Shown here: piece by piece, positions 31,034 through 57,711 of the stretch
Position numbering within the stretch: the first letter of the stretch is position 1
Layout of the letters: every line of letters begins with the position of its first letter
Source of the DNA: Cristatella mucedo
Lineage: Eukaryota; Bryozoa; Phylactolaemata; Cristatellidae
Direction of reading: 5' to 3'
DNA: 64,000 nucleotides
Assembly: GCA_009760855.2 (NCBI GenBank)
Contig: WPIO01000043.1
Location: 1,550,001 to 1,614,000, forward strand
Notes under the pieces: generated by a model
Database searches by the model: none
What the model was told of the DNA's origin: nothing
Seen by the model: the letters and a program-made list of their open reading frames with translations, nothing else
Made by a program: the position numbers and the translations under genes

Positions 31034-32460
31034 TATAATAATAATAATAATAATATTGCACTTGATAAAGCGCCCTCAGAGAACTTAATCTCTTTCTAGG
31101 CGCTTTACATTTGCTGCAAAGTGATAAACAATAGAATAGTAAGTAAAATCATGCTTGAAAAACAAGCAAAATGAATAACATGGTTAGGGGTTACATGCAC
31201 TGGGTCAGCATGCAAATGTGGTTAGTGGCAGCATGAACAGTGTCAGCACGCATAAGCACATCGAGGACGAATCACAAGGACCCACTAAATGCTGTCCTAA
31301 ATAGGTATGTTTTTAAGTTTCTTTTAAATGTGGTCAGGTCAGGGGATGTTCTGATGCAGGTCGGGAGGGAGTTCCAGGCTGTGGGAGCATACGAGCTAAA
31401 TGCACGGTCTCCAAAGGATTTAAGGTTTGTACGAGGTATTTCTAGACTGTTGGATTCCGAAAAGCGAGTGGTACGATGCTTTGCCTGATGGGGTAGTATC
31501 TCTGAAAGATAGGCTGGAGCCATAGAATGAAGAGACCTAAAAGTGAGCGACAAAACCTTGAAGTCAATCCGTTGCTTGACTGGTAGCCAGTGCAGGTCGG
31601 CGAGAAGTGGAGTAATGTGGCAACTGCGACGCTCACGACAGACAAGCCTAGCTGCAGAGTTTTGCACCAGCTGCAATCGCCTGATCGCACATGCTGGTAG
31701 GCCAGTAAGCAGTGAGTTGCAGAAGTCGAGACGAGATGTCACGAATGCATGGACCAACTTGGACGTGGTATCCTTATCTAAACAAGCCCTAATTTTAGCA
31801 ATGTTATGAAGCTGAAAATAGGCTGATTTGACTGTGGAGCTGATGTGGTCGTCTAACGAGAGGTCGCTTTGGAATATGACACCTAGATTTCGAGCTGATG
31901 CAACTGGAGATATGCTGGCAGAGCCAATTTTGAAAGTCAGCCTTTCCAATTTCTGAATAACACTAGGTTTGCCCATAACTAGTAAGTTAGTTTTATCATC
32001 GTTTAGTTTTAGAAAAATTTGCTGCCATCCATGATCGGATGTCATCAATGCATGCAGCAAGTGAGTTGAGAGAATTTGAGGTGCTCGAAAGCTGGGAGGG
32101 ATCAAAGCAAAGGTACAACTGAGTGTCATCCGCATAGAAGTGAAAGCCTAGATTGTGCTTGGCAATCACATCAGCGAGAGGGAGAGTATAAACGGTGAAA
32201 AGGACCGGACCTAGCACAGAGCCCTGAGGTACTCCATATTTTAGAGGTACTTCAGATGATCTTTGTCCATTCACGTCAACACTCTGGAGTCTCCCACTGA
32301 GATAGGACCTGAACCACTGCAGAGCAGTGCCAGTGATGCCCAGGCGAGATGAGAGGCGCTCTAGAAGTACTTTGTGATCGATGGTATCAAAAGCTGCCGA
32401 AAGATCGAGCAAAACAAGAAGAGACACTCTACCCATGTCTGCATTCCTAAGTAGGTCGGT
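31033..32460 (-). mobile_element. LINE-A insertion (RT half of ORF2 to 3' tail)
   Basis: The (AAT)n tail is at 31035-31054, the 3' UTR to about 31270, then ORF2. The RT core is legible: LLVLLDLSAAFDTIDHKVL, YGVPQGSVLGPVLFTVY and FHFYADDTQLYLC, followed by the thumb and C-terminal region ending RTAFSGSL. A single extra A in an A-run at about 32012-32016 shifts the frame. 5'-truncated at about 32460, where the host GC-rich repeat resumes. Very similar to the copy at 59-61 kb, so recent. Confidence 0.92.
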
Positions 32461-32461
32461 T

Positions 32462-32905
32462 TTGGCGGTCTGGCTGTCCTGTTCCAGGCTAGGTAGGTAA
32501 TCACTAGTCGCTTTTTGACCGCACCTGCCTAAAAATGGCGGCACCATAGATCGCCCTCACTGGCGCTTCACATATGCCTCGAGGCTCGAGCCCACGACCT
32601 CAGTCAGACCTTGGTCGGGGCGAGCACCTTAACCGCTAGACCAATCACCGGCTAGTGGCGTACGCGGTGAGTGGTTCGGAGCTGGTGACAGCAGGCGATG
32701 CAGCTACGCCTGCTGCAGCAGCCGATGCCGCCGTCTGCCGCCGCCACCCACCACGGCAACGGGCGCTCACATACGCCGCCAATGGAGCCGCCCACCAGGA
32801 CCGGGAAACCATCAACCGCTACCACCGCCGCAGCCGCCCAATCCCTATGAATCCCGCCGGAGCCGCCGAACGGGTGAAGGTGAATGTAACTCATTTTTAA
32901 ACCGC
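32462..32905. repeat. GC-rich dispersed repeat, copy 1, right part (carries SINE-1)
   Basis: TGGCTGTCCTGTTCCAGGCT and GGCGATGCAGCTACGCCTGC match the second copy at 47.16-47.55 kb. Rich in GCC/CCG triplets. A SINE-1 lies inside at 32555-32650. The open frames here differ between the two copies, so I do not call a protein. Confidence 0.6.
32555..32650 (-). mobile_element. SINE-1 tRNA-like head
   Basis: On the minus strand it reads TGGTCTAGCGGTTAAGG (A-box region) then GTGGGCTCGAGCCTCGAG (B-box region), as in a tRNA-derived SINE. The LINE-like tail is largely missing: only GGCGCTTCACATATGCC-type sequence remains on the left. Confidence 0.75.
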
Positions 32906-34765
32906 AACCGACAAGGAAGCTTACCAATTCACCAATCTCTGCTAAGATGCAGCTAGGCGCACTGCAGCAGCCCACTGGGACAGATTATGTAAAATCTCAC
33001 TCCCCGTGGCACCCTTGTTTGGATGCAAATATGTTTTGAAGAAGTAGAAAATTAAGATTTCAAGGACTGAAATAATCAAAACATCAGTTATCCAATAGGA
33101 AATGGGCTGGGCGGTACGAACGTTGGTGGAGCTTCAAAAAACCTTCAAATTGAAGAAGCCGCCGCATGCACTCTGAGTATAAGAGCAATTGAGAGCAAAC
33201 AAACGAACAGAGAAATGCTGGGAATCAGCTTTATGCGATCGCACGTTATTCCGTGAACTTTTTTGCGAATGTGCAGATATTCAGATTACCATACGTTCAT
33301 GGTGTCCCTGATTTCTGATAAACGTGTGCTTCTATTCACTGAGGGTCTGGAGAGCTGAACGACTTTTAAATAATTACGACTTCTTCATCGCTAATAGAGG
33401 CTTTAGGATGTATACAAATATTATTAATTTGATTTACCCTAGCATTTATTACTCGGTTTTAATTTAGAGTGCAACTTTCAGTCGTGTAATGTATAAGACG
33501 CATACTAAATCATATGACTGCCATTTAAAGTTTACGGTAAATTTTACTGAGCACTGATCCTTCTACCTTAATGTACAATTAAGAACTTGGAGGTTTTCGC
33601 AGTTTCAAGCTATGCTATAATTTGGTGCGAATTTAAGACGATTTGACATATAGGTTTTGGAAAGTCTTCGAGCGGGTTTCGGATGCTTTTACCAGATGAT
33701 GATATCTTGGGGTAGATTTTGCGAATATTTAGGATTTTCCTAAGCAGCTACGTCTTTGATATTGGCCTTTTTTGGTTATTTCGCCTCACTGACGGCTAAC
33801 GTCATTCCGTGAAACAAGTGACGTCTTTTTAATCTAGTCCGGCTTCCATTTCTTTCACTATAACTCCGACGATTAGCCCATAGGAAAAAGTTACTGGAAA
33901 TGACAACTGCACTAACTAGGCGTTCATTGCTAGCGTAATAAAATCCTAGAATGTCTGACCCTCGTCCAATTTGGGGATAACTCTAGAAAATGCAGGGATG
34001 GTAAATAGCATTTGGCCGCCTCATCTATATAAAGTCCGGCTTTCATTTTTTCATTATAACCGTGCTAATACGGGCACAATAAATGCACTTTGATGATGCA
34101 GACAAAAAGACTTTAAATCGATGATTTACGCCATTTTTGAATAACTAGGAGGACGTCGTGTGAGCGTTGATTTGTTGTAGGCTTTCCGTTTTTCTAGTGG
34201 GTAGGTATCGCTACTATGCAACCGCGGATAATTAAGAGGTTCCCATTCTGCACAAGCGCCAGCAGCGTGGTCAGAGACTAGCGAATGATATCCATGCACA
34301 TGTGTAGGGTCAGCCACACAAAGCTACGCCCTACCATTTCAACAGAAACCTCAGCATTATACTTATCTGCATCCTTGCGTCTTCTCTCTTCTAAAACAAC
34401 AGAGATACGCTTGTAGTCATCACGCGGCCGCCGCTACAGATTGAGGTTAACGAGCAGCGTTTCAGCATTGTTGTAATTTACTGCAGTCGTACCACAGATT
34501 CGTCGCAGCCGCCAGGCTACTGCCCGTCGCTGTCACCAGAGTTGCAATTTTGATGAATTGCCTAATCAGTAGTTAAAGTTTCGTTGCCGTCGCTCGCTGC
34601 ACAGAACGCCAGCCGACGAGCAACACCACCAGTTCATTCTACTACGCACCGAGATGGGGGAAGGACAACTGCCGCCCGCCGCCGTCCATCCTAACCGGCG
34701 CTTCCGCTGTCTGCGGATCGGGAATGCTGCGCTCTGATTCGTGCGCGTTGTGGCTAACGGGTTCG
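32906..34765. other. No gene recognised
   Basis: AT-rich to 34.4 kb, then a GC-richer stretch at 34.5-34.75 kb. No coding frame is convincing. Confidence 0.4.
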
Positions 34766-38095: not shown

Positions 38096-38707
38096 TATTA
38101 TAAAGACTGGTAGCTAGACAAGCGTTTGCTTTGAAAATTCTTAACTATACAGCTCACCAGCACAATTCTTCACAACGGCATTTATCTATTGTGGCAGCAC
38201 GTCGCAAAGCTTTTCAGCGGTCCGGATATGCTGCTTCAGTGCTACTCCCTTCCTCAGCGGCCATCCAGACTCAGAAATGAGTTTTTGACGAGCCCTCTCT
38301 CCCGTAATATGAAGTCTTCTTACTACTCCATACGCACCGGAAGCCGCAGGCTTTGGTTGTTCTATTTTAAACGGTCCTGCACAAACGCCATCCCGTCGTT
38401 GTGGCTTTGTGGTTTATTGGGTTTTCTGAGTCGAAGACGGGGATGCATTACTTTACAAAGTCTTGAAGCTAAAGCACATGAAAGTGGCTTTTAGAGAGTC
38501 AGCAAGCTTTAAGTAATAGGCTCACAAAGGCCCGGTAGTGTGGCTTCAACCCTGTTGTGGAGGACGACGATCGATCCTACCGCCCATGACCGAGGCAAGT
38601 CACCATATTGAAATTATGCAGTCGCGTAGCTGCTCTTAGGCGACGGCCTGGACCGAGCGGGCAGGATAACCCGACAACAGCGAACCGGTATAGCGCGCCG
38701 GCAACTG

Positions 38708-38787
38708 CTCGCAAGGACAATGGCTCGCAAAAACAAAGGCTCGCAACGACAATGGTTCGCAACGACAATGGCTCGCAACGTCATAAG
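38708..38787. repeat. 16-bp tandem repeat, five units
   Basis: Five units of CTCGCAACGACAATGG (with substitutions), immediately upstream of the leader exon. The 16-bp period is not a multiple of three, so the open frame across it is probably not protein coding. It may sit in the promoter or 5' UTR. Confidence 0.85.
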
Positions 38788-38845
38788 CGGAAAGAATAAA
38801 AGCCGGCTTCTATTTAGCAGTAAACGCCGATTTTACGGAGAGCGA

Positions 38846-38933
38846 ATGCAGATGAGATTTTTTAAGGTCTCAGCTATTGTGGTACTGGCGGCCGGCAGCC
38901 TAGCGGCTGCCGCTATTTGGCTTTATGGGCGCA
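38846..38933 (+). CDS. Micro-exon gene, exon 1 (hydrophobic leader)
   Basis: Codes MQMRFFK, then a ~20-residue hydrophobic run (VSAIVVLAAGSLAAAAIWLY) and GR, ending in phase 1 at a GTAAGT donor. A short basic start before a long hydrophobic core fits a signal peptide or signal anchor. I chose Met 38846 because the frame upstream crosses the 16-bp repeat; Met 38852 is equally possible. Confidence 0.65.
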
Positions 38934-41900
38934 GTAAGTTGCAACAATGCTGAAGTGCTACTCAATTGCAATATTCAGTTCGCAGCAGCTGCCGCATCCT
39001 AACTGCGAGATTATCTGTTTTGTTTTAGAAAAGAGAAATTTCAAGGATATCGGTAAGTATAAAGCTGAGGTTTCCTTTGAACTGATCGAGCGTAAATAAC
39101 AGCGGTTGACCTGGCACCAGCATACGTATATCGTTGGCTAGTGTTTAATTTCTTCACTGTTTCAGTTGACTCGCCCGTCGACGGCGACGCGTTTCCAGAG
39201 CCGTCGCCGTTACTAACTGGTTAGTACGCGCTCGTTTGGTATTATCCAGACTTTCAAAAACTGCGTTACATTGCGTCGAATCCATGTTTTTGGTCATGCT
39301 TTTAATGTTAAATCCGCTAGACAGAAATAAGCGATGTAGCTGGCCAGACCCTATGCAGCATTCTATTCGTTCCCGGCAAGCGTACCAAAATGCCGGAACG
39401 GTTATTCATACCTCAAATTTAGGAGTAATTATTTCACTTGCAGGAATGGAGAATTGAATTGAATGACAAGATGTGATTGCCTCAATAGTTGTTGTACACC
39501 TAGAGCTATTTATTGTTACGGCTTTTACTTTTGCAGCGATAAGAAGTTGTAGTTGTATCTTTGAATGCTATGCAGAGCGAAGACCACTTCCTAATTAAGT
39601 ATAGCTGTGCACAGTATTGCCAAAAATACGTCTCGATTTCGCGGATACTGTATATAAAGTGTATATTAAAGTGCATGGAATTGATAGGACATTGAAGTTT
39701 AGCTTAGCCATGATCTGCTTCTTTTTTTTGCAATAACTTTAATTATCTCTGGATCTTGTGGTCAGGTTCATTATTTGCAAGAAGCTATAGCACGAATCCT
39801 TAGCAACCTACGAAGCAGTTTGTAAAAGTATCTCTTTATCATTTCAGGTGACTTAGCCGTCGGCGACAACCATTTGCCGGACTTGACGTATCCGTCGACA
39901 AGTGGTTAGTGCACGCTCATCTGACCTTATCTTTTAACGCTATGCCGACAGAAGAGCACTTATTGGTTTATTACAGCAGAGCTAACATCTCCCGATATTC
40001 GTGACGATTTTACAGATACTGCTTATACAGCATATATACTAGTGCACAGACCTGATAAGTCACTGAAGTTTTGCTTTAATGACTCCGGAGCTTGTAGTCA
40101 GGTGCACTTTTAGCAGCAGGCTTTTGCATGAATCTCAGCAAGATGCGATGGCGTCCGTTTAAAAATTCCTCCGCTGTTTCAGTTCACTCGCTCGTTGAAG
40201 GCGGCACAATGCCGGCAGCGTCGCCGTCACGAAATAGTTAGTACGCGTTCGTTTGAAGCCAATCACACTCTAAAAAGCGGCATTCAATTGCATCGTGCTC
40301 AGGTTTTTCCGTGATGTTGATAACATTGAACGAACTATTCCCCCTTGACGAAGGTCCCGCAGCCATTGAGACCCTTCTCCCGACGTTTAATTATTTACAG
40401 ATGGCATATCAAAATGCTAAAACGTTCAGTGATACGTCCAATTTAGGAATGTTTCCACTTGCGAGGAAGATAAACTATATTGAACGAGAAAAAAGGATTG
40501 CCATAATAGCTATTGTAAGTCGACTGCAGTGTATTGCTACATCTTTGACTTTTGCGATGAGAGGTTTTAGTCGTGTCTTCAAATGCTGTGCCAAGCGAAG
40601 AGCACATCGTCGTTAATTGCAACTGAGCGCGATATCGCCGGATATACGTAAAGATGTTTAAGATACTGCTTGTAATGTGTGTGCAAGGGTGCACGGACAT
40701 GACTAGTCATTAAAGGTTTGCTTAGCTATAATGTGCTTCTTTTTAAGAGCATCTTTTGCAGAAGGCTCTAATAACACTAGAGCTTATGGTCAGGTTAATT
40801 GTTTGCAAGAAGCTATAGCAAAAATCCTCAGAAACCTACGAAGCAATTTGTATAAATATCTCTTTATCGTTTCAGTTGACTTACCCGTTGGTGGCAACCG
40901 TTTGCCGGCCTTGGCGTCGCCTTCAGGAAGTGGTTAGTACACGCTCGTCTGACCTTCTCTTTTAATGCTATGTCTGCAGAAGAGCCCTTGTTGGTTAATT
41001 ACAGCTGCGCATAGCATGACCTACATTCGTGACGATTTTACAGATACTGCTTATAAAGCGAACATGCTAGTGCACTGATGTTATTGGTCACTGAAGTTTT
41101 GCTTAGCCATGATCTGTTTTTTAAGAGCTTCTTTTACAGAAAGCTCTAGAACTTATAGTCAGGTGCACGTACAGCAATAGGTTATTGCGTGAGCCTTAAC
41201 AAGATGCGATGGTGTTTGTTTAATAATTCCTCCGTTGTTTCAGTTCACTCGCTCGTCGAAGGCGACACAGTGCCGGCGGCTCCGCCCTCACCAAGTGGTT
41301 AGTACGCGCTCGTTTGACATTAATCTAGCTCTCAAAAGCGGCGTTAACTTGCATCGTACTCAGGTGTTTCCTTCATGTTTATATCATTGACCGAAACTAT
41401 CGCTCTTGGCAGAAGTGCCGCAGTAAATTAGACCCTACTCTCGACGTTGAGCATTCATACATGGCATATTGAAATTCTAAAAGGTTCAGTCGTACGTCCA
41501 ATTTAGGAATAGTTTTTCGTCTTGGAAGGATGATTAATTATATTGAATGAGAAAAGGTAATTACCTTGATAGCTGTTGTAACTCGACATCAGTGTACTGC
41601 TACGGACGTTGGGGATGAAGAGCGCTTCCTAAGTAATTACAGGTGAGCGCGGTATCGCCGGATATACGCCGGATATACGTAGAGATGGTAAAGATACTCC
41701 TTGTAATATGTGTAATGGGGTGCGGAATTTTTAGGTGATTGAAGTTTGCTTAGCTATAATGGGCTTATTTTTAAGAGCATCTTTTGCAAGAGGCTCTAAT
41801 AATTTTTGAGTTTCGAGTCAGTTTCATTGTTAGCAAGAAGCTATGGCATGAATCCTCAGCATTCTACGAAGCAATTTGTATAAATATCTCTTTATCGTTT

Positions 41901-44900
41901 CAGTTGACTTACCCGTTGGTGGCAACCGTTTGCCGGCCTTGGCGTCGCCTTCAGGAAGTGGTTAGTACACGCTCGTCTGACCTTATCTTTTAATGTTATG
42001 CTTACAGATGAGCCCTTATTGGTTAATTACAGTTGAGCGTAGCATCACCGGATATTCAAGATGATTTTACAGATACTGCTTGTACAGCGAACATGCTAGT
42101 ACACTGATGTTATAGGTCACTGAAGTTTTGCTTGTCCATCATCTCTTTTTTAAGAGCCTCTTTTGCTGGAAGCTCTAGAGCTTATAGTCAGGTACACTTT
42201 TAGCAATAGGTTATTGCGTGAACCTCAGCAAGCTGTCATTGCGTTTGTTCAACGATTCCTCCGTTGTTTTAGTTCACTCGCTCGTCGAAGGCGACACAGT
42301 GCCGGCGAGTTCGCCGTCACCAAGTGGTTAGTACGCGCTCGTTTAAAATCTATGAAGCTCTCAAAAGCTGCACGATTTGCACCATAAAGTTTTCCCGTCG
42401 TGTTTTTAACATTGCGTAAACTCTCCCCCTTGGCGGAAATAAGTGCCGCAGTGAAGTAGACCCGAGAGCAAATCTTAGTTAAGTACAACTGCACATGGTG
42501 TCTCTGGATATACGTAATTTCGTCAAAGATACTGTTTATCATCTGTACGTAACGGTGCGCGGAATTGTTATGTTATTAAAGGTTCACTTAGCTACAATGT
42601 GCTAGAGCATCTTTTGCAAGAAACTCTAATAACTATTGGGGCTTGTGGTCAGGTTCATTGTTTGCAAGAAGCTATAGCAGTAATCCTCAGAAACCTACGA
42701 AACAGTGTTTATAAATATTTCTTTATCGTTTCAGTCGACTTACCCGTCGATGGCAACCGTTTGCTGGCCTTGGTTTCGCCTTTAAGAAGTGGTTAGTACA
42801 CGCTCGCCTGACCCTATCTTTTAATGCTATGCCTGCAGAAGAGCACTTATTTGTTAATTACAGTGGAGCATAGCCTCGCCGGATATTCGTGGTGATTTTA
42901 CAGATACTGCTTATAAAGCGGACATGCTAGTGCTCAGATGCTTTAGGTCACTGAAGTTTTGCTTAGTCATGATCTCTTTTTAAGAGCCTCTTTTAATGGA
43001 AGCTCTAGAGCTTATAGTCAGGTACACTTTTAGCAATAGGTTATTGTGTAAATCTCAGCAAAAAATATGACGGCGTTTGATTAAGAATTCCTCCATTGTT
43101 TCAGATCGCTCGTACGTCGAAGGCGACACAATGCCGGCAGTGTCGCCGTCACGAAATGGTTAGTACGTGCTCGCTTGAAGCCAATCAGGCTCTCAAAAGC
43201 GGCGTCAACTTGCATTTAACTCAGGTGTTTCCTTCATATTTATAACATTGAACAAACTTTCCCCCTTTGCGTTATACTCTTATAATGAGCATTCGTAGGT
43301 TGAAACGCTAAAACGTTCAGTCATGCGTCCAACTTAAAAATAATCTTTCCTCATGGAAGCACGATAAACTATATTGGATGACAAAATGTGATATCCTTAA
43401 TAGCTGTTGTAACTCGACTGCAGTGTATTTTTATGACTTTTGCAATGAGAAGTAGTAGTCGTATCTTTTAATGCCATACCAAGCGAAGAGCACTTCCTAA
43501 TTAATTGCAGCTGAGTCCGGTATCGCCAAATATACGTAACGATGCTAAAGATACTGCTTATAGTGTACGTGTAATTGTTCGCGGAATCGATAGGGCATTG
43601 AAGGTTTGCTTAGCTACATTGTGCTTCTTTTTAAGAGCATCTTTTGCAAGAAGCTGGTAACTCTGGAGCTTGTGGTCAGGTTCATTGTTTGCAAGAAGCT
43701 ATAGCATAAATCCTCAGCAACCTACGAAGCAATTTGTATAAATTTCTGTTTATCGTTTCAGTTGACTTACCCGTTGGTGGCAACCGTTTGTCGGCCTCGG
43801 CGTCGCCTTCAGGAAGTGGTTAGTACAAGCTCGTCGGACCTTATCTTTTAATGCTATGTCTACAGGAGAGCCTTTGTTGGTTAATTACAGCTGCGCTTAG
43901 CGTCACTTACATTCGTGGCGATTTTACAGATACTGCTTATAAAGCGAAGATGCTAGTGCACTGACGTTATAGGCCACTGAAGTTTTGCATAGCCATATTT
44001 TTAAAAACAACTTTTGCTGTAAGCTCCAGAGCTTATAGTCAGTTGCATGTTCAGCAATAGGTTATTGCGTGAACCTCAGCAAGCTGCGATGGCGTTTGCT
44101 TAAGAATCCCTCCGCTGTTTCAGTTCACTCGCTCGTCGAAGACGGCACAATGCCAGTGGCGTCGCCATCACGAAATGGTTAGTACGCGCTCGTTTGAAGC
44201 AAATCGGGCTCTCAAAAGCGGAGCTAACTTGCATCCAACTAAGGTGTTTCCTTCATATTTATAACATTAAACAAAATTTCCCCCTTGGCGAAAGTGCCGC
44301 AGCAAATTTGATCCTACTCTCGACGTTACCGTTTCCCGGCCTTGGCATCACCTTCAAAAAGTGGTTAGTACACGCTCGCCTGACCTTATCTTTTAATGCT
44401 ATGTCTGCAGAAGAGCCCTTGTTGGTTAATTACAGCTGCGCTTAGCATGACTTATATTCATGACGATTTTACAGATACTGCTTATAAAGCGAACATGCTA
44501 GTGAACTGATGTTATTAGTCACTGAAGTTGTTTAGCCATGATTTAAACATTTAAAAGGAACTTAAAAACACACCTATTTAGGACAGCATTTAGTGGGTCC
44601 CTGTGATTCGTCCTTCACGTGCTTATGCGTTCTGACACTGTGCATGCTGCCACTAACCACATTTGCATGCTGACCCTGTGCATGTCACCCCTAACCATGT
44701 TATTCATTTTGTTCGTTTTTCAAGCATGATTTTACTTACCATTTAATTGCATTTCCCTTTGCAGCAAATGTAAAGCGCCTAGAAAGAGATTAAGTACTCT
44801 GAGGGCGCTTTATCAATTACATTATTATTTTTTTTATTTATGATCTGTTTTTTAAGAGCCTCTTTTACTGGAAGCTCTAGAACTTATAGTCGGTTGCACG

Positions 44901-46900
44901 TTTAGCAATAGGTTATTGCGTGAGCCTTAACAAGCTGCGATGGTGTTTGTTTAATAATCCCTCCGTTGTTTCAGTTCACTCGCTCGTCGAAGGCGACACA
45001 ATGCCGGCGGCTCCGCCTTCACCAAGTGGTTAGTACGCGCTCGTTTGACATTAATCTAGCTCTCAAAAGCGCCAAAACTTGCATCGTACTCAGGTATTTC
45101 CTTCATGTTTATAACATTGACCGAAATTTTCCCTCTTGGCAGAAGTGCCACAGTAAATTAGACCCTACTCTCGACGTTGAGCATTCATACATGGCATATT
45201 GAAATTCTAAAACGTTCAGTCAGTCGTACTTCCAATTTAGGAATAATTTTTCCCTTGGAAGGATGACACATTATATTAAATGAGGAAATGTTATTGCCTT
45301 AATAGATGTTGTAACTCGACTGCAGTGTACTGCTACGGCTTTGACTTTTGCAATGAAGAGCACTTCTTAATTAATTACAGCTGAGAGTGCTGGAAGCTCT
45401 AGAGCTTATAGTCAGGTACACTTTTAGTAATAGGTTATTGCGTGAACCTCAGCAAGCTGTCATGGCGTTCGTTTAACGATTCCTCCGTTGTTTCAGTTCA
45501 CTCGCTCGTCGAAGGCGACACAGTGCCGGTGACTTCGCCGTCGCCAAGTGGTTAGTACGCGCTCGTTTGAAATCAATGAAGCTCTCAAAAGCTGCATGAT
45601 TTGCACCGTAAAGTTTTCCCGTCGTGTTTTTAACGTTGCGTTAACTCTTCTCCTTGGCGGAAATAAGTGCCGCAGTGAAGTAGACCCGAGAGCAAATCTT
45701 AGTTAACTACAACTGCACATGATGTCTCTGGATATACGTAATTTCGTCAAAGATACTGTTTATCATCTGTACGTAACGGTTCGCGGAATTGAGGAAGAAG
45801 CTCTAATAACTATTGGAGCTTGTGGTCAGGTTCATTGTTTGCAAGAAGCTATAGCAGTAATCGTCAGTAACCTACGAAGCAGTGTGTATAAATATTTCTT
45901 TATCGTTTCAGTCGACTTACCCGTCGATGGCAACCGTATGCTGGCCTTGGTTTCGCCTTTAAGAAGTGGTTAGTACACGCTCACCTGACCCTATCTTTTA
46001 ATGCTATGCCTGCAGAAGAGCACTTATTTGTTAATTACAGTGGAGCATAGCCTCGCCGGATATTCGTGGTGATTTTACAGATACTGCTTATAAAGCGGAC
46101 ATGCTAGTGCTCAGATGCTTTAGGTCACTGAAGTTTTGCTTAGTCATGATCTCTTTTTAAGAGCCTCTTTTAATGGAAGCTCTAGAGCTTATAGTCAGGT
46201 ACACTTTTAGCAATAGGTTATTGTGTAAATCTCAGCAAAAAATATGATGGCGTTTGATTAAGAATTCCTCCGTTGTTTCAGATCGCTCGTACGTCGAAGG
46301 CGACACAATGCCGGCAGTGTCGCCGTCACGAAATGGTTAGTACGTGCTCGCTTGAAGCCAATTAGGCTCTCAAAAGCGGCGTCAACTTGCATTTAACTCA
46401 GGTGTATCCTTCATATTTATAACATTGAACAAATTTCCCCCCTTTGCGTTATACTCGTATGTTGAGCATTCATAGATCAAAACGCTAAAACGTTCAGTCA
46501 TGCGTCCAACTTAAAAATAATCTTTCCTCATGGAAGCACGATAAACTATATTGGATGACAAAATGTGATATCCTTAATAGCTGTTGTAACTCGACTGCAG
46601 TGTATTTCTAATGCTTTGACTTTTGCGATGAGAAGTAGTAGTCGTATCTTTTAATGCCATGCCAAGCGAAGAGCACTTCCTAATTAATTGCAGCTGAGTC
46701 CGGTATCGCCGGATATACGTAAAGATTCTAAATATACTGCTTATAGTGCACGTGTAATGGTTCGCGGAATCGATAGGGCATTAAAGGTTTAGATAAAATC
46801 AATTCGCTCCGTAGCCCGGTTGTTGTTTGCTGAATATTAATCTGTAAATGTTTTAGCATTTTCCAACAATGCGTCCCAGAACCAATGCCCGCGAAGCTGA
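38846..46900 (+). CDS. Micro-exon gene: hydrophobic leader plus array of 54/57-nt phase-1 exons
   Basis: Spliced gene model covering exons listed separately. Leader exon, one 24-nt exon, then alternating B (54 nt) and A (57 nt) exons: nine B and six intact A. All internal exons begin and end in phase 1, so exon skipping keeps frame. With the candidate terminal exon the sum is 984 nt, 327 residues. The predicted product has an N-terminal hydrophobic segment (signal peptide or signal anchor), a basic RKKR stretch, then 15 repeats of an 18-19 residue Pro/Ser/Gly/acidic motif (V-D/H-x-x-V-x-G-D/N-x-x-P-x-x-x-S-P-S-like). It should be secreted or exposed at the surface. The architecture recalls flatworm micro-exon genes, but no homologue is recognised. 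Expression is not shown by sequence alone. Confidence 0.72.
39029..39052 (+). CDS. Micro-exon gene, exon 2 (24 nt)
   Basis: Bounded by TGTTTTAG and GTAAGTAT. Phase 1-1, coding KKRNFKDI when joined to exon 1. The junction creates R-K-K-R, a furin-type cleavage motif. Confidence 0.65.
39166..39219 (+). CDS. Repeat exon B1 (54 nt)
   Basis: Acceptor TGTTTCAG, donor GTTAGT. Codes VDSPVDGDAFPEPSPLLT. It is the most diverged B exon, but its downstream flank (GTACGCGCTCGTTTG) is of B type. Confidence 0.75.
39848..39904 (+). CDS. Repeat exon A1 (57 nt)
   Basis: Acceptor CATTTCAG, donor GTTAGT. Codes GDLAVGDNHLPDLTYPSTS, a diverged A motif. Confidence 0.75.
40183..40236 (+). CDS. Repeat exon B2 (54 nt)
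   Basis: Acceptor TGTTTCAG. Codes VHSLVEGGTMPAASPSRN. The last exon base is A rather than G, leaving A|GTTAGT, so the donor may be weaker. Confidence 0.72.
40876..40932 (+). CDS. Repeat exon A2 (57 nt)
   Basis: Acceptor CGTTTCAG, donor GTTAGT. Codes VDLPVGGNRLPALASPSGS, the consensus A motif. Confidence 0.78.
41244..41297 (+). CDS. Repeat exon B3 (54 nt)
   Basis: Acceptor TGTTTCAG, donor GTTAGT. Codes VHSLVEGDTVPAAPPSPS. Confidence 0.78.
41904..41960 (+). CDS. Repeat exon A3 (57 nt)
   Basis: Exon sequence identical to A2, with the same splice signals; codes the consensus A motif. Confidence 0.78.
42273..42326 (+). CDS. Repeat exon B4 (54 nt)
   Basis: Acceptor TGTTTTAG instead of TTTCAG, donor GTTAGT. 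Codes VHSLVEGDTVPASSPSPS. The following intron is ~200 bp shorter than in the B3 unit. Confidence 0.77.
42735..42791 (+). CDS. Repeat exon A4 (57 nt)
   Basis: Acceptor CGTTTCAG, donor GTTAGT. Codes VDLPVDGNRLLALVSPLRS, a variant that replaces the first Pro of the LPAL segment by Leu. Confidence 0.77.
43105..43158 (+). CDS. Repeat exon B5 (54 nt)
   Basis: Acceptor TGTTTCAG, donor GTTAGT. Codes DRSYVEGDTMPAVSPSRN; the start ATCGCTCGTACG differs from the other B exons and is shared only with B9. Confidence 0.77.
43762..43818 (+). CDS. Repeat exon A5 (57 nt)
   Basis: Acceptor CGTTTCAG, donor GTTAGT. Codes VDLPVGGNRLSASASPSGS. Confidence 0.77.
44124..44177 (+). CDS. Repeat exon B6 (54 nt)
   Basis: Acceptor TGTTTCAG, donor GTTAGT. 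Codes VHSLVEDGTMPVASPSRN. Confidence 0.77.
44328..44363 (+). pseudogene. Broken repeat exon A6 (acceptor and first 21 nt deleted)
   Basis: The B-type downstream intron runs only to CTCTCGACGTT and then joins directly to the last 36 nt of an A exon (ACCGTTTCCCGGCCTTGGCA...), which still has its GTTAGT donor. The acceptor and first 21 nt are gone, so this exon cannot be used as a normal repeat exon. Confidence 0.8.
44545..44836 (+). mobile_element. LINE-A 3' UTR insertion inside the micro-exon gene
   Basis: Plus-strand, 5'-truncated LINE-A from the last ORF2 codons (TTTAAAAGGAACTTAAAAAC) to the terminus GCCTAGAAAGAGATTAAGTA and a T-rich tail. It lies in an intron in the same orientation as the gene. 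ATGAT occurs on both sides of the insertion and once in unoccupied repeat units, consistent with a short target-site duplication. Confidence 0.88.
44975..45028 (+). CDS. Repeat exon B7 (54 nt)
   Basis: Acceptor TGTTTCAG, donor GTTAGT. Codes VHSLVEGDTMPAAPPSPS. The A exon expected after it is absent: near 45385 the intron jumps to sequence upstream of the next B. Confidence 0.77.
45497..45550 (+). CDS. Repeat exon B8 (54 nt)
   Basis: Acceptor TGTTTCAG, donor GTTAGT. Codes VHSLVEGDTVPVTSPSPS. Its flanks are closest to those of B4. Confidence 0.77.
45912..45968 (+). CDS. Repeat exon A7 (57 nt)
   Basis: Acceptor CGTTTCAG, donor GTTAGT. Codes VDLPVDGNRMLALVSPLRS, nearly identical to A4. Confidence 0.77.
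46282..46335 (+). CDS. Repeat exon B9 (54 nt)
   Basis: Acceptor TGTTTCAG, donor GTTAGT. Codes DRSYVEGDTMPAVSPSRN, identical in sequence to B5. Last array exon seen; the repeat flank ends near 46790. Confidence 0.77.
46857..46900 (+). CDS. Candidate terminal exon of the micro-exon gene
   Basis: Just beyond the array's end, AAATGTTTTAG provides an acceptor; reading on in phase 1 gives AFSNNASQNQCPRS and a TGA. It keeps frame with all upstream exons and adds one Cys and an N-A-S glycosylation sequon. No homologue supports it, and the true last exon may lie elsewhere. Confidence 0.3.
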
Positions 46901-47054
46901 GGGAAGATGACAGGGGTACTCGTAGCACGACTTCTGCTTCTAATCTGCACAAAGCTGTGCTACATTTAGGACGACAAGCCTGCACTCGTATTTTTTGTGA
47001 TGCATTGAGTGAGTTGACCTAAAAGCTGATCTGAAATATTGTAGAACACCTTAA

Positions 47055-47590
47055 GAGAAAAGAGGCTCCGCCGATCGACGAGACCAGCGGGAGACTGAAG
47101 GGACGGGCTGCCATCAAAGCACTGGCGGCGGCCCGTCTAGATTGGAGCTAGCAGGTTTGCGGCGGGGTGGCCGTCCTGTGCTGGGCTAGGTAAGTGACCG
47201 CTAGTCGTCCTGGGACGGCAAGACCACACATCGCCTGAGATCGTGGCTGTTAGCTGACGCCGGCTAAAATTTTTGGAGGGAAACCTCACCTTACCTCCAC
47301 GCCCACCGCAAGGTGCCAAACTGAACGGCTTCGCTTTTGTAGGCTGTCGACGGCGTACGAGGCGAGTGGTACGGCTATGGCGACCGTTGGCGATGCAGCT
47401 ACGCCCGCTGCAGCAGCCGACGCCGCCGTCTGCCACCGCCACCTACGACCGCCGCGGACGCCCTTATTTGCCGCCGACTGAGCCGCCCACCAGGACCAGG
47501 AAACAATCTAACAACCACCGCCGCGACCGCCCTTTAGATCCCGCTGGAGCCGCCTATTTTAACAGTTCGTTTCTCTTACGTTTCTAAGGG
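47055..47590. repeat. GC-rich dispersed repeat, copy 2 (without LINE-A)
   Basis: Second copy of the repeat at 30.95-32.9 kb, here uninterrupted at the LINE-A insertion point: GGGACGGGCTGCCATCAAAG, then GGTGGCCGTCCTGTGCTGGG, then GGCGATGCAGCTACGCCCGC. It is rich in GCC/CCG, and open frames on both strands are compositional. AATAAA at 47600 could serve as a polyadenylation signal for plus-strand transcripts such as the micro-exon gene. Confidence 0.6.
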
Positions 47591-48185
47591 AAATTTTTCA
47601 ATAAAAAGTTCTACAGTTTAAGCTCCAATGTTTACTACAGATATTGAAAACAAATTTATAAAATTTCTTTTGAATGTGGTACTGATTTATTTAATCAAAT
47701 GTGCGAAAAAGGATATTTGCTAAATTGATTGTGTTGCATCATCAAATACTATAGTTCTTTTTAGCCAAGTCTTCCGTTTGGGAATGCGTCGGCAAGAAAA
47801 AATCCAATTACAGAGAGCTAGCAGGTCAATTTGGACGATACAATAAAATTGTCAACTTTCTGGAAACTTCACGACAGTTCGAGAGAATCGCTTAAAAGAA
47901 AATTGATTTCGATGAACCTGCATGCAGGTGTACATCCAAGAAAGAGCCCGTGGAGAATAAGAGAACAAAAACGATTGCCAATTGTATGGGGTGATGAGGA
48001 GATAGTAATTAATCTGGCTACTGTCGGAATATAGATTATAGAACCGTCACTAGAAGCGGTTATATCTGACAATCAGTGTTGCCCGACGGATTCAACTTCA
48101 AGCCAACGAAAGTAATGTGATGAAGCTTTCACATCATGAAGAAAAGAGAAACAAGGTTATTACCGACATAAAGGAAAACTAGAGA
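47591..48185. other. No gene recognised
   Basis: AT-rich. Short ORFs on both strands at 47.83-48.07 kb overlap each other and show no motif. Confidence 0.4.
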
Positions 48186-48189
48186 GAGA

Positions 48190-50085
48190 GAGAAAGTTGA
48201 GCAGAGGCTTTCAAGAAAAACTTGGTAATCGATAATATGAAGAGCAGCCGAAAGATCGAGAAAAACAGGCAGAGACACTCCACCCATGTCTGCATTCCTA
48301 AGTAGGTCATAGTACACCCTAAAGAAATGCTGATTCTGGAGTGATTAACTCTAAAGTCAGACTGGAACTTACTAGCAGGGTTTGAAGTTTCAATGAATGA
48401 GTTCAGCTGGTCCGCCACGACTCGTTCCAGTGTCTTTGTTGGGAATGATCGAAGGGAAACTCGATGGTAGTTGCTCAAGTTCTCTTGGTCTAGTGTGACT
48501 TTCTTGAGAAGTGGCCTGACTGCAGCTTTTTTGAAATGTATTTGGATATGACCTGAGCAGCAGATCAATGCAACGTAATACTAGGACAGTGGGAATACAG
48601 TCCACAGGACTTGTTGCCTTCTGTGATTGGGATAGTAACCTGAGGATGGTGTCGCTAGTGACCTGCTTGAATGTTGGCATTGAGGTGCAGCTAGGCATCG
48701 AGGGACAGCAATCTAGTGGGAATGCTGCCATCGCTGGGTTGGACTCCCTGATCTTGTGTATCTTTTGGATAAAGAATTGAGAGAAGCAATCGGCTAGACC
48801 ATCACAAGGATCATCAGGTAAGGAGCTAATCTCAGAGCCGTTGAGGAGATAGTTGATCGTCAATATCAGCATTTTTAGATTGTGCATCTGGGATTCAAAA
48901 ATGTTTTTATAGACGCTAGACTTGGCCTTGGCCATGATCGATTGGTACGACCTACAGCAGTCCTCGTTTGCCTGTCGATGGAAAGTCAGTCCTGATCTTG
49001 TGTAAGCATTTTCAAGCTTGCGCTTAATAGACCTAGCTAGTTCAATGTCCGTGGTAAACCATAGGCCGTCTGGGCGAGAGCGAACTGTGCGCTTAGTCAG
49101 AGGTGCAAACTCGTCGAGCGTGTCAGCTAGTGTCGTGTTGTAGCTATCTACCAATGATGACGGATCGGAGGGAGGACTGAGCAGTAGAGGCGAAGCAGAT
49201 ATTCTCGCACGGACAGCATCGATGTCAAGGGTCTTGAGGTTTCGTGATTCGCAGGTTATTTTAGAGGAGGAGGTGGGCACACACTGTAGATTGACTGAGA
49301 TCTGCATGTGGTCAGATAAGCAGGATTTGGCAATAATTGGTGATGACAAAGTGCAGTTGTATGAGAAAATCTGGTCGTGTGACCGTTGATGCGAGTAGGG
49401 CAATGCACATGAGGCACAAGAGACAATGAGCCAGTCAGTCAATGCACGAAATTCAGTGCTGACGGCGTCAGATAAGTGATCGAATAGAACGTCGAAATAA
49501 CCCTAACGAGGAAGGGTCGATTTCTTGCACACAGAATCGAAATGAGATCGGAGAAATCTGAGATAGAGGAGAATTTGGTACCTGGTGATCGATAGACTAC
49601 TGCCACTATGGGTAGCTTGTTTTTGGGTGAGACCAAGACAATTGATTCAAAAGACTGCTTTGAGGGTACTGCAAATGGCTTGAAGTTGAATTTCGAGCGT
49701 ACGATGACAGCAACTCCACCTCCAGTTTTGATTAACCCAGGGTTATGAGAGAATGAGAAACTAGTCCGGGTAGCGTCTTTAATCGTCGGACAGTTTACCA
49801 ATTTTAGCCAAGTTTCAGTTAGGGCGAGCAGGTCGAGACCATTTTCACAATTAAGGTCGCTTATTACCAGAGGTTTATTGCACGTTGAGCTAGAATTCCA
49901 AAGGCAAGCGTTAAGTCGGGTCGATGGAGTTAATATGATCCTGATGACCACCAAGTTAGAGAGATTCACAGTGATGCATGTGGGGGAGCGTGCTGATCTG
50001 TTCGAGACAACGCTAGGAATACCAAGCGAACGGATACTCAGCTCGAAGTTCCCGCCCATTGAGCGGCATCTAAGCTGGCGGTTCC
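48190..50085 (-). mobile_element. LINE-A 5' portion: endonuclease and start of RT
   Basis: The only copy in the window that keeps the ORF2 N-terminus. Reading leftward, the apurinic-type endonuclease region shows ALTETWL, a GGGVAVIVRSKF segment, VVYRSPG and, further on, the catalytic-His-type motif SDH (in KSCLSDHMQISVNL). The linker follows (LARSIKRKLENAYTRSG), then the RT start near PLLKKVTLDQENLSNYHRVS and LPVFLDLSAAL. Several frameshifts, for example where the endonuclease DFN motif is expected. It is 3'-truncated at about 48190, unlike normal 5'-truncated LINEs, so the rest was lost after insertion. A short GA run sits at the truncation point. Confidence 0.88.
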
Positions 50086-50469
50086 GGCCACAGCGGCGGC
50101 TCCGGTGTGCTTTTCGTTTGTTAATGCACAGTTCACGAATCTTAGCAATAGCTTTAATATCTAGGAATGCATCTTATCTACGATGACAAAGCGATGATAG
50201 CTGCTGACGACCATAAGGCGGCCACTGGCGTGGGAGACCCAGCAGACCGAAGCGATTAGCGTTTAGCTATCCATAGGCACGTAATTTCTTACGAGCTACG
50301 GTCAAATAACAATCAGAATAACTTTAAGCATGTCTTACCTGTATTTTGTTTGTATGCGATGTTCGCAAGAGCTTCAATTTTTGGAAGAATGCCGCAACAA
50401 ACAGCGAACGCGAATGAGAGCGAAATTCGGTGGCTACATGAATGTTAGCGGGCCGGTTTCGTCAAACCA

Positions 50470-51000
50470 TTGTCTGAACCTTGGAGTTTGAAAGTAGGCA
50501 GTCTTGACTGTGGAGCTGATGTGGTAGTGCAATTAAAGGTAAATTTTGAAGAGGATATCTACAATTTGTGCTGACTTACTTGGATAGATGCTGGCAAAGC
50601 CGACTTTGGTTTTTCATTTTTTTTAATCCCACTTAGTTCACCCAAAATTGGTAGGTTTGTTTTATCATCATTCAATTTAAGAAAGTTTGCTACCATTCAT
50701 GTGCGGATGTTGCCAACACCTGCAACAAAGAAGTTTAGAGAATTAGACTGCAAGAGAGCTGGGAGTGATCAAAGCCGAGGTACAATTCAGTGTCACCTGA
50801 TAAAAGTGAAAGCCTAATTTGTGCTTCAAAATTGCATTAGCAAGAGGCAGAGTATAAACCGTGAAAAGAACCAGGATAATGCCCAGAGCCCTGATGTACC
50901 CAATTTTGCAGTGGTTCCTCTGGTGATATTTGAGGATTCACATCAGATAAATCATTCGACAAAATATACAGCCATCGCTCCGAGAATTTACTTCGGCATC
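50470..51000 (-). mobile_element. Diverged LINE-A RT fragment
   Basis: Collinear with the LINE-A stretch spanning the thumb to the RT catalytic region (GTGGAGCTGATGTGGTAGTG near 50510 to AGGCAGAGTATAAACCGTGA near 50850), with many differences and indels. Confidence 0.7.
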
Positions 51001-51084
51001 TTTAGAGAACGTAACTCCATGACAACGATAAGCATATCCAGTTGGTGCAACTTACCAAATTCGTCGACGACAGAGCGGTAGTCA

Positions 51085-52245
51085 GTTAAATGGCTGATGG
51101 CTGTGCTACGTGAAAGGTCAGCGTATTCCGCAAGAAAAAATAGTTGCATTAGTATTCTAGATCAAGACTCGATCTTGAAGAGTTATGCGTAATTGGTCCG
51201 GATGAGTTGTACTCTAGAACGGCTGTGCCGAACAATGCTGCGGTGGCTGCATTGAAACATGCCACCGCGTTAGAAATTTCAGAGGCGGTAACCTCTGAAA
51301 CGTAGCACGTCGGCTGTAACTTATACAGTTTAATAAGGTTCGACTACAAATACACGTTTGGGTGACCAACCAAAACATGCAAATAAGCCCCAGTTTTTGG
51401 TTGCTGAACCATGTATTCAAACCAAATGAACGTATTAACAGAGTTTAATCAACCCTTTAATAGAGTTTGGTCAACCATAGAGCAACTTGCATTCATCGCT
51501 GGCTTACTCCTCGCCAACTCTAACTCATAAAACTAAAATATGCGTGGTTGTGAACCCAAGAAAACAGTTCTTCATCATACTAAAACTACGATAGCACAGC
51601 ATGCATTGCAATTTTGAGGGACTCCCGTGTAAAATCTAAAGCAGATATCGATGCTGCATTGAGTGAACCAGCCTTTATCGCTCTGGATCTTACGTGATTT
51701 TATGTAGACAGTCTAGAACATGCCGCTGCTGTCATCGTCTCATTTATGTCATAATCTCATTGATCAATACACAGGGATTCCGGTGAAACAAGGTGGCTTA
51801 AATGTTGGCCTTGCAAATGTTGAGAGGCTAAAGTTGAGAAGTACCATAAACTCGAGTGGCACACGAGGTACCCCTGGCTTGTTTGCGTCAATGCACTAAC
51901 ATTTTCCACTGACGCATCAGCTTTAGTATTGCAGTACAATCAATAACCTTGATACCCGTAAGGGTAAACAAGCATTCACATAGTCACGCGATAATCAACG
52001 GCATCACTGGGTGGTAAGCTGTCAAGCAGATCTAGCTGGGAAACTCTGTCCAGGTGCATCACCCCTGACAAGTTTGTTATACGCACAAAATGATGTTGAT
52101 TTTGAAAAGTACGTAGGCAGATGTGTTGAGCTCCGTAATAGTCATTGACCTCAATACGTTTACACACACTAAAGTGGAACAGTCTGATCCGGCCATGCGG
52201 GTTTCTTAGTTCGCCTGAACAAAGCGATCCTTATATCCCCGTCAG
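51085..52245. other. No gene recognised
   Basis: No convincing coding frame or repeat was identified. Confidence 0.4.
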
Positions 52246-52249
52246 CAGA

Positions 52250-52705
52250 TCATGACGTCGAAGGGCTGCTGCCTTTGTCTGGCCCTTGGGCTGCTTCCTG
52301 GCACACGGGAAACCAATTAGCCCAACAATGGCTCAGCCAGCAGGAAATTTTGGTCGACACGCTATGACAAACGGCACGCAAGCAGATGTAAGCAGAAGTG
52401 TGGGAAACTTGCCTCGGCTTGACTCCGCGCCGGTGTATCGCTACAGTCTTTAACTGCCAGCCCCACAGCTGCTTGCTGCTTGCCAGCGACAGGAGGAAAC
52501 GAAAACAAAACAAACGGTGCGACAAAAAGGAAAGAATCAGAGCCGGTTTGGGGATACAAGATCTTGCTGTCTGAGAAGCCTGGTGTCCCCACTCACTGCC
52601 AGCCCTGTGCAATCTCTAAGGGCAGAGAAAGCAGCCTCTGGCGCTGGTGGCTGGGCGCAGCGTGCAGATGTGGCAGGCGGAGACACTTCAACATACGCCT
52701 GCCTG
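52250..52705. other. GC-rich stretch, no assigned gene
   Basis: Open frames on both strands (for example minus 52250-52612, 120 aa) but no recognisable domain. GC-richer than its neighbours and possibly another repeat. Confidence 0.35.
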
Positions 52706-52931
<226 letters not shown>

Positions 52932-53471
52932 TGAATTACTTGAATCTTGAAAAGCTACGCTCTGACAGGAATGGTGCGGCGCGGCTGCTATGAAATAACG
53001 ACAGACTAGGCATGCTGCTATGTTTGGCACCAGTTGCTGACGAGCAAGAGCCATTGGCCGAGAGTTGTAAACAAAAATAATCTGGATGCGATGTCACAAA
53101 CTACTGAGCTAGTTTGGCTATCGTATCCTCGTTTCAACAGGCCCTGATGTTCATATACTCCTTCTCCGAAAGTAGGCCAACTTGGCACTGGAGACATGTG
53201 CTCATCTGCCGCACCGCGGCGTAATTACGGGAAGACGCTACCGCAAAAGTGATGCAAGATGATGGGACCGGGACCAAAGAGCTTAGGGTGATGTATCTAG
53301 GACAAAAATGGACTTAACAAGCAAAGTTTATATTTGCGTTAAAATATTTGTAGAAGCCACTTAATACCAGGCGTTCCGGCAATTCAGGACAATAAAAGTT
53401 CTATTCAAGATAAACGTATAAAAACGTAAAGTGCAAAGTGGATAAGCGATAGCTAATGTGTTATCTTGCAG

Positions 53472-54725
53472 AGGTTATCACCACTCAGATTTTTAACGCG
53501 GTGACAAATTTCAATGCAGTCGCTGCAGCATTGGGCTGCATAGCCATTCGACCGCGAAACTCGTCTGGACCAAAATCGTATAGCACTTCCAGATCGTCTC
53601 CTGATCTGGAATACCACTGGTACTATTTTTTTCTCACGGAATACGCTGACCTTTCTAGCAGCACTGCCATCAGCCATTTAACTGACAACGGCTTTGTCGT
53701 CGATAATTTTGATAAGTTGGACGAAGTGGACCTGCTTATTGTTGGCGAGACGACGACGCTTTATCTAAAATACCAAAGTATATTCTCTTCTAGATGAATG
53801 CGATGAGAGTTCTTGAATTTTCAGATGTAGCCAAATTTTCTCGGCGGCCAATTTCACACCAGTGCAGCTGTATTCAGTAAGACTTTATGCAGTGACTAGT
53901 TTTCCTTAGATGTCCTCGACACGAGTTCCGCGCTCCCATCAGGCAGCCGTGGTACTTCTGCTGCTTTCTATTACTTGCGTTGCACTTCAGATGCTTTCAC
54001 AACGCTTTCTTAGTATGGCAATGAATTCCTTGTCATTCATGGCACCAAAGGTGAGCCTATTCTCCTTCCCCAGCACCGAAGGGGGATTTTAGGGGCTCGT
54101 GGGCTGTGCGCCGTGGCTGCACGTCGAAGAGCGAAGCCACCCACAAACGACGTTGCTGCGTTGTCGACCATCACGCTGCATCGTATCGTACGCCAGCAAT
54201 GCAAGCGAACGAGCGTACTTAGTGGCATAGTGGCTGTCGTGCGTGCTGCTCCGGAGCACGTGGTGATAAGAGAAGAGAGAAGAGAGTGGGTAGCGTGCGT
54301 ACAGGCCGACGCACAGGCAGAATGCGAATTTCGCAGCGAAGAACACGCCACGCGCCGGCGAGGCGCGCGTCCGATGGGCGGAAGAAACGTCGGCTGGGGC
54401 GGAACCACGTTCTGGCGATGACACGCCCACAATTTTATGTCTTCGTTAGCCCTACTCGTGCTTTTGACAACGTAACCTGGAACCGACCGATCGCTAAGAT
54501 CAACACCAGCGGTTCAACGATACGACTAGAAAAAGTGGGTGAGCCCCATAATGGAACATGGGAGTGCACTACAAGGGTTATCAGCGCCAAATGCTGTTAC
54601 AGTCCTTGAATATCCAAATATCGCTATCCGCTATCCATGCCGATGCCGTGGCAAGTCCTAACGATGAGGCGCGATTCACCTGTCGAACGAAGCTGGTGAA
54701 CGAAGCTGGCAAAGCGTTCCAATGA
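53472..54725 (+). pseudogene. L1CAM-type Ig pseudogene
   Basis: 53472-53711 is a 240-nt exon equivalent, preceded by TCTTGCAG and in the same phase as the 3337-3576 exon on the other strand. Shared residues include EV..TQI, ALG, NSSGP and DL...W.YY, but the strand-B Cys is Arg (IRPRNSSG) and the donor is ATAAGT instead of GTAAGT. Further on, after a TTCGTTAG acceptor, 54450-54612 codes a typical Ig end (VTWNRP, then IRLEKV, then NGTWECTT), after which the strand-G-like SAPNAVTVLEY lies in another frame, and 54660-54720 keeps ARFTCRTKLVNEAGKAF. Frame breaks, the lost Cys and the lost donor indicate a non-functional copy. A SINE-1 abuts its 3' side. Confidence 0.65.
53910..54049 (+). other. Leader-like open segment within the Ig pseudogene
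   Basis: ATG directly after TTTTCCTTAG opens MSSTRVPRSHQ followed by a hydrophobic core (AAVVLLLLSITCVALQML) and reaches GTGAGC, a usable donor. It looks like a signal-peptide exon. If real, it may mark the start of a separate Ig gene that includes the 54.45 kb exon. The intervening 54.05-54.42 kb is GC-rich and not recognised. Confidence 0.3.
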
Positions 54726-54730
54726 TTTTG

Positions 54731-54868
54731 GTTTGGTCTAGCGGGTAAGGTGCTCGCCCCGACCAAGGTCTGACTGAGGTCGTGGGCTCGAGCCCCGAGG
54801 CATATGTGCAGCGCCTGAATAGAGATTAAGTTCTCTTAGGGCACTATATAAATGAATTATATTTTATA
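54731..54868 (+). mobile_element. SINE-1, most complete copy
   Basis: Head TTGGTCTAGCGGGTAAGG (A-box region) and GGGCTCGAGCCCC (B-box region), joined by the GACCAAGGTCTGACTGAGGT anticodon-arm-like block. The tail CGCCTGAATAGAGATTAAGT and TCTCTTAGGGCACTATATAA matches the 3' end of LINE-A. No internal protein-coding frame. About 138 bp. Confidence 0.88.
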
Positions 54869-57600: not shown

Positions 57601-57711
57601 TATCCATGTGCAGATCTCATCAATACATGCAGCAAGAGAGTTAGAGAGAATTCAACGTTCTTGAGGGCTTCGAGGGATCAAAGCTACAACTGAATGTGAC
57701 CTGCATAAGCC

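Follow-up and report, generated by a model that had tools for sequence, protein, structure and literature searches.

A stretch of 64,000 nucleotides from the bryozoan Cristatella mucedo (assembly GCA_009760855.2, contig WPIO01000043.1, positions 1,550,001 to 1,614,000 of the forward strand; here called the window and numbered from its first letter) contains an array of fifteen small exons that follow a leader exon and a short second exon. On balance, we think that this array makes up the 5' part of an animal gene, or perhaps almost the whole of it, and that the encoded protein is secreted or crosses the membrane once. In our reading, its frame and splice sites have been maintained while the residues drift. 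The exons with their phases and splice sites, the duplications, the retention of frame and splice sites, and a ratio of non-synonymous to synonymous differences (pN/pS) near 1 were read from the sequence itself.

The leader exon starts with the ATG at 38846 and extends on the plus strand for 88 nt, or 29 codons plus one nucleotide, to a GTAAGT donor at 38934. Exon 2, of 24 nt, encodes the peptide KKRNFKDI and ends at another GTAAGT donor. Fifteen repeat exons then follow within 39166-46335, nine of 54 nt (type B) and six of 57 nt (type A), in the order B A B A B A B A B A B B B A B. All fifteen have a length divisible by three, are in phase 1 at both ends and free of stops, and are bounded by a YAG acceptor (CAG in 14, TAG in one) and the six-base donor GTTAGT. 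Exon 2 is likewise in phase 1 at each end, as are thus all internal exons, and the 17 exons joined together form a single open frame of 313 amino acids, up to 276 of which belong to the repeat part. The original prediction had described a leader of 29 codons, a 24-nt exon and fifteen exons of 54 or 57 nt in phase 1-1, all of which were present where it had placed them; its further claim that any subset of these exons could be joined in frame is supported by their symmetric phases.

We scanned both strands of the window for an acceptor followed by an open phase-1 stretch of 45-66 nt and GTTAGT. This pattern returned precisely the fifteen repeat exons on the plus strand and none on the minus strand. 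In 500 first-order Markov resamplings of 38846-46900 the mean number of such exons was 0.084 and the maximum two, a control that addresses the chance of a single exon and not that of copies arising by duplication.

Comparison of the copies with one another did not reveal purifying selection at the level of residues. The sums over 36 pairs of B copies and 15 pairs of A copies gave a pN/pS of 0.99 for B (bootstrap over codons, 0.48-2.48) and 0.85 for A (0.41-2.26), and codon position 2 was the most variable among the copies. Such values fit a spacer under little residue-level constraint. The original prediction had argued for selection on the protein from the open frames of divergent copies. Understood as conservation of amino acids, this claim is unsupported by our ratios; the part that stands is selection for joint retention of frame and splice sites, supported by the rarity of such an outcome in neutral simulations. 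When neutral change was simulated on trees derived from the flanks, with a copy counted as intact if it had no stop, frameshift or loss of GT/AG, the six A copies all stayed intact in 2.5% of the 10,000 runs; for the nine B copies the figure was 0.04%. In variants of 6,000 runs, the product of the A and B fractions was 7.7e-5 without indels, 1.5e-5 when the indel rate was halved, 7.5e-5 when rates were multiplied by 0.75, and 1.4e-4 without the edge copies; the base case of this series gave 0 runs in which all B copies were intact. Across the neutral simulations, the chance of finding all repeat exons intact was about 1e-5 to 1e-4.

The selection claim had also been said to fall if substitutions in the exons were no more restricted at non-synonymous than at synonymous sites, nor relative to introns. 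The former is what we observed. The latter is weakly contradicted by six close pairs of copies, in which 330 exon sites had 13 changes and 1893 flank sites 142 (P = 0.009), the exons being about half as divergent as the flanks; exons 4 and 10 formed a further pair, which was computed but not pooled, as exon 4 would have been used twice. Tree lengths for the nearby flanks were 0.460 (A) and 1.240 (B), and those for the exons on the same topology 0.498 (A) and 0.918 (B). In a separate 300-nt intron alignment, the sequences for exons 1, 12 and 13 were not homologous to the rest, and the intron distances from it were set aside.

The array has evidently grown by duplication. Where no deletion or insertion intervenes, the direct-repeat families place the units mostly 1017-1061 nt apart, and members of these families are 60-97% identical to their own reference copy. 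Introns after A and after B exons have blocks in common (families D5 and D9, 61-75% identical to the reference copy across types), and A and B units therefore look like the products of an older duplication. Between A and B exons 39% of sites differ, against 17-19% between copies within one type. The most conserved 20-nt intron windows of the A units begin about 100 nt past the exon (TTTTACAGATACTGCTTATA at 41034), and related blocks occur in B introns. The youngest block duplication relates 42164-43607, with exons 7-9, to 45388-46790, with exons 13-15, at 92.8% identity over 1450 columns and both on the plus strand; copy number therefore changed again later. Duplicated intron sequence extends to about 46790-46838. 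Loss is visible as well. A remnant A exon between exons 11 and 12 lacks its acceptor and about its first 21 nt and retains the GTTAGT donor, and an A copy seems to be absent between exons 12 and 13. An insertion at 44547-44838 (+), also located between exons 11 and 12, represents the 3' end of a dispersed element resembling a long interspersed nuclear element (LINE); it has 15 blastn matches elsewhere in the window, the best of 92% to 59240-58951. No tandem repeat was reported inside 39166-46335, which leaves the array without a microsatellite. As for the order of events, we infer that types A and B would have come from the duplication of an ancestral exon together with a part of the adjoining intron, that the A-B pair would then have become a unit of about 1 kb, and that this unit would have been multiplied, probably by unequal crossing-over. 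The features are listed in Table 1.

Table 1. Exons of the array and associated features in the window.
Feature	Position	Strand	Basis
Degraded divergent copy of leader, intron 1, exon 2 and intron 2	34277-34567	-	alignment
Putative TATA-like stretch (AATAAAAG, starting at 38795) and a short 5' untranslated region ahead of the ATG	38795-38845	+	direct reading of the sequence, putative
Leader exon, hydrophobic, putative signal peptide or signal anchor, phase-1 end	38846-38933	+	hydropathy, splice sites
Exon 2, 24 nt	39029-39052	+	splice sites, frame
Repeat exon 1 (B, 54 nt)	39166-39219	+	
Repeat exon 2 (A, 57 nt)	39848-39904	+	
Repeat exon 3 (B)	40183-40236	+	
Repeat exon 4 (A)	40876-40932	+	
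Repeat exon 5 (B)	41244-41297	+	
Repeat exon 6 (A), same sequence as exon 4; compared flanks differ by 12.5%	41904-41960	+	
Repeat exon 7 (B)	42273-42326	+	
Repeat exon 8 (A)	42735-42791	+	
Repeat exon 9 (B)	43105-43158	+	
Repeat exon 10 (A)	43762-43818	+	
Repeat exon 11 (B)	44124-44177	+	
Remnant sixteenth repeat exon (A)	~44328-44363	+	left boundary approximate
Repeat exon 12 (B)	44975-45028	+	
Repeat exon 13 (B)	45497-45550	+	
Repeat exon 14 (A)	45912-45968	+	
Repeat exon 15 (B)	46282-46335	+	
Weak candidate for a terminal exon, open in phase 1 up to a TAA, with AATAAA at 47600	47343-47587	+	pattern search

Just upstream of the possible promoter lies a 16-bp tandem repeat of 4.6 copies (38707-38780). 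Farther away, 4.3 kb from the intact leader and in divergent orientation, the minus-strand leader copy (34567-34277) carries lesions: the counterpart of the ATG at 38852 reads ATT, and the GT of the exon 2 donor has become AT. No match to the repeat exons follows this copy, nor is there one anywhere in the window outside the array. On the same strand, 4110-3020 contains three apparent phase-1 exons of an immunoglobulin (Ig)-superfamily gene. Their joined translation resembles contactins, with Contactin-2 as the best PDB match (E 3.7e-6); no single stretch passes alone, and Pfam Ig models stayed under their cut-offs. On the plus strand, an Ig-like exon at 53471-53716, with a phase-1 start recognized by eye, matches 3577-3335 at 36.7% (E 2.6e-9) and has lost its donor, reading ATAAGT where its relative has GTAAGT. 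With its flanks (53435-53787) it recurs as an inverted copy at 51331-50982 (-), 75% identical and with an internal stop in the minus-strand copy. A further Ig-like coding stretch, at 54030-54600 (+), appears by eye to be interrupted by about 330 bp of unrelated inserted sequence.

Several observations weigh against a gene that is still maintained. Without the edge copies, pN/pS was 0.86 for B and 1.16 for A, and A exons overall are about as divergent as their flanks (0.498 versus 0.460). Much of the force of the simulations comes from GT/AG; frame alone gave weaker probabilities of 0.0023 in the base case, 0.016 at half the indel rate and 0.11 without indels. Moreover, the simulations begin from copies picked as intact, which biases them towards selection, and the remnant at 44328 and the apparently missing A copy between exons 12 and 13 stand outside the intact count. 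Finally, the neighbourhood is damaged, with a degraded divergent leader copy and damaged downstream Ig-like exons, and therefore holds dying genes.

The 3' end belongs to the same side of the balance. A search with scored acceptors and phase-1 frames over 46340-60000 and a second one for an acceptor, a stop and AATAAA across the window both failed to return a convincing terminal exon. The plus strand has six ATTAAA and no AATAAA in 38846-47599, the first AATAAA being that at 47600. Terminal-type structures of the second kind numbered two on the plus strand and three on the minus strand of the window. The weak candidate listed in Table 1, one of the two on the plus strand, lies within an open frame at 47258-47587 and fell below the score cut-off of the scored-acceptor search; moreover, 47352-47554 is a repeat in common with 32657-32867, where the frame of the candidate has stops. 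The two copies of this GC-rich repeat of about 210 bp are 78% identical, and among the frames looked at none is open in both.

What else might the array be? That it is a non-coding tandem repeat whose units carry exon-like stretches by chance is, to our mind, very improbable. Tandem duplication copies any motif, fifteen copies are not fifteen independent events, and pN/pS is near 1; yet frame and splice sites are intact despite the divergence between and within types, the neutral simulations speak against such an outcome, and an open, phase-matched leader and exon 2 stand just upstream. A recently dead gene or 5' fragment, once functional, with its 3' half lost and its repeats now drifting, is a more serious contender, though still an unlikely one. 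It would account for pN/pS near 1, for A exons as divergent as their flanks, for the failure to find a convincing 3' end, for the degradation of the minus-strand leader copy and for a downstream plus-strand Ig-like exon without a donor. However, there are 0 lesions in the 17 exons, leader included, and the Ig exons are only putatively part of the array gene.

If those Ig exons did belong to it, the product could be an Ig-superfamily protein of leader, stalk and contactin-like Ig domains, with 53471-53716 as its broken 3' part and with the minus-strand leader copy and the Ig exons at 4110-3020 as a mirror-image sister. Such a leader-stalk-Ig family is possible, and the leader-then-Ig order on both strands, the phase-1 start of 53471-53716 with its match to 3577-3335, and the contactin-like character of the minus-strand stretch all point towards it. 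We nonetheless consider it rather improbable: the gaps of 7 kb and 30 kb are partly filled by LINEs, the plus strand has no significant match to the exon at 4110-3958 and its own Ig exon is damaged, another inverted Ig copy at 51295-51051 indicates scattered pieces, and the Pfam Ig models remained under cut-offs. Less probable by far is a mutually exclusive cluster of the Dscam type, in which a docking site in intron 2 would pair with a conserved element at each donor. The donor plus 20 nt does rank 3 of 694 windows for conservation in B copies, and its mean duplex energy with intron 2 was -15.75 versus -13.14 (standard deviation 1.84) for shuffles. Still, 14 of 200 intron 2 shuffles reached the observed pairing (156 of 200 for intron 1), stronger pairing occurred at two other places, near 41636 and 47351, the donor block ranks just 79 of 697 in A copies, and exons of a length divisible by three need no exclusivity. 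We rejected Dscam-like docking because the duplex test was not significant.

The preferred reading is a gene whose product is secreted or spans the membrane once. The hydropathy of the leader reaches a maximum of 2.25 over 19 residues, and basic residues flank the hydrophobic core on both sides; a cleaved signal peptide and a signal anchor are both conceivable. The repeat region of 276 residues consists to 51% of Pro, Ser, Thr, Gly and Ala and is rich in Ser, Pro and Val and weakly acidic; it lacks Cys, Trp, Lys and any N-glycosylation sequon and has four aromatics. From this composition it is probably a disordered, extended stalk or spacer. For mucin domains rich in proline, threonine and serine, the threshold is about 40% Ser and Thr, together with Pro. 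With Ser at 16.7%, Thr at 4.3% (together 21%) and Pro at 14.5%, the region has too little Ser and Thr for a classical mucin domain. Two Pfam matches of the 313-residue translation were discarded as matches of composition, ESR1_C (22.6 bits against a cut-off of 22.3, best stretch 17 residues) and DUF5949 (under its cut-off). The repeat peptide had no relative in viral_contigs.

In such a gene the leader exon would supply the signal peptide or signal anchor, and the fifteen repeat exons would encode a Cys-free stalk, rich in Ser, Pro and Val, of up to 276 residues. Because every repeat exon is in phase 1-1, the length of the stalk could change in frame: gain or loss of units in the DNA and skipping of exons in the RNA would both alter it, leaving the frame unshifted. 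Selection would hold the splice sites and the frame, and probably the general composition and length, but not the exact residues. This model predicts that the array is transcribed and spliced, that some exons may be skipped, and that the product serves outside the cell as a spacer.

The donors of the repeat exons might serve an additional function. All fifteen are GTTAGT, unlike the GTAAGT of exons 1 and 2, and in phase 1 a retained intron would be read as Gly-TAG in 14 cases and as Ser-TAG in one, with the stop one codon past the exon in 15 of 15. The array might thus specify a surface or secreted protein that is combinatorial and tunable in length, with a stop built into each module, perhaps a diversifying coat for recognition or defence, a proposal to which we give little credence. 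Under it, splicing would add a module and intron retention would end the protein cleanly after the current one; all 32,768 exon subsets would be in frame, with an ending possible at any module. The uniformity of GTTAGT may, on the other hand, simply have been inherited from a single founder exon. The common in-frame stop at the donors is in any case a concrete feature and cheap to test.

The nearest architecture that we found is that of Schistosoma mansoni SmPoMuc rather than that of classical micro-exon genes (MEGs). An SmPoMuc gene, otherwise of 15 exons, encodes a signal peptide and then carries up to about 20 tandem genomic repeats, each about 1 kb long and with a 27-bp exon (PMC2576457). 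By that description it resembles the array in its leader, in its tandem units of about 1 kb with a short in-frame exon and in a repeat domain just past the signal peptide; its copy number varies, and its cluster includes a truncated, repeat-less gene comparable to the minus-strand leader copy (PMC2576457). SmPoMuc differs in having one exon per unit and a 9-residue repeat, against two exons of 54 and 57 nt per unit here, in units that share more than 93% identity and have imperfect GA microsatellites between them, against more diverged units, and in its further exons 3-15 with a hammerhead ribozyme in a downstream intron (PMC2576457). In the 64 kb there were 0 Rfam matches at the gathering threshold, a result that may not cover the downstream part of the array gene.

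The exons of MEGs measure 6-81 bp, the majority 15 bp, mostly in multiples of three, such that skipping preserves the frame (PMC10526429, PMC4015677). By this account the array is MEG-like in its short symmetric exons behind a leader, with 16 of 17 exons of 24-57 nt and divisible by three and a leader of 88 nt, and unlike MEGs in that 0 of 17 are of 15 bp (PMC10526429, PMC4015677). Two post-signal hydrophobic or aromatic MEG motifs given in these texts, as coded here, had no match in the 313-residue translation. The micro-exon gene model of the original prediction thus holds for the many small symmetric exons, and the analogy with MEGs is loose, SmPoMuc being closer.

The IgG3 hinge and chicken BG genes offer parallels. 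Davis is said to have reported tandem exons of 81 bases in 1988. The hinge exons of IGHG3 are short, proline-rich and in phase 1-1, and the hinge is rich in Cys. Tandem multiplication has given 2 to 5 of them per allele, and they set a hinge length of 32-77 residues, so that tandem exons govern length as they would in the array, albeit in an antibody gene and with few copies (PMC8674132). The BG genes, in the examples given, have 27-37 heptad exons of 21 nt, which differ in that they code for coiled-coil heptads in the cytoplasm, downstream of an Ig-V domain and a membrane segment (PMC5938342). Patthy gives reasons for which symmetric exons would lend themselves to skipping, and a reviewer expresses doubt in the same pages (PMC6335736). 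The array may work like SmPoMuc; membership in any of the compared systems is not supported. We found no description of it among the titles and abstract openings of the literature matches listed, which cover subscription papers thinly. By the means used the array gene matched no described gene, and its design is of a known kind.

Downstream of the array lie pieces of LINEs. LINE copies occur at 31040-32556, 48179-50173 and 58951-60995 (-), which we take to be L2/CR1-like; RVT_1 was found under its cut-off (E 3.6e-4) in the stretch 59183-60076. The LINE protein had no relative in viral_contigs or genome_contigs, and a pattern from the tail of the transposable element gave 0 matches in both. A common head of a presumably short interspersed nuclear element (SINE)-like element is present at 54735 (+) and 32642 (-), with a tail that resembles the dispersed LINE-like ends; ARAGORN found no tRNA gene.

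A few other animal genes are already known to have this design. If transcribed, the array of C. mucedo would be another animal gene that lengthens its protein by stacking modules separated by introns. With splice sites and frame apparently selected and residues drifting, it would lend itself naturally to testing selection on spacer length and, equally, how exon arrays grow by duplication.

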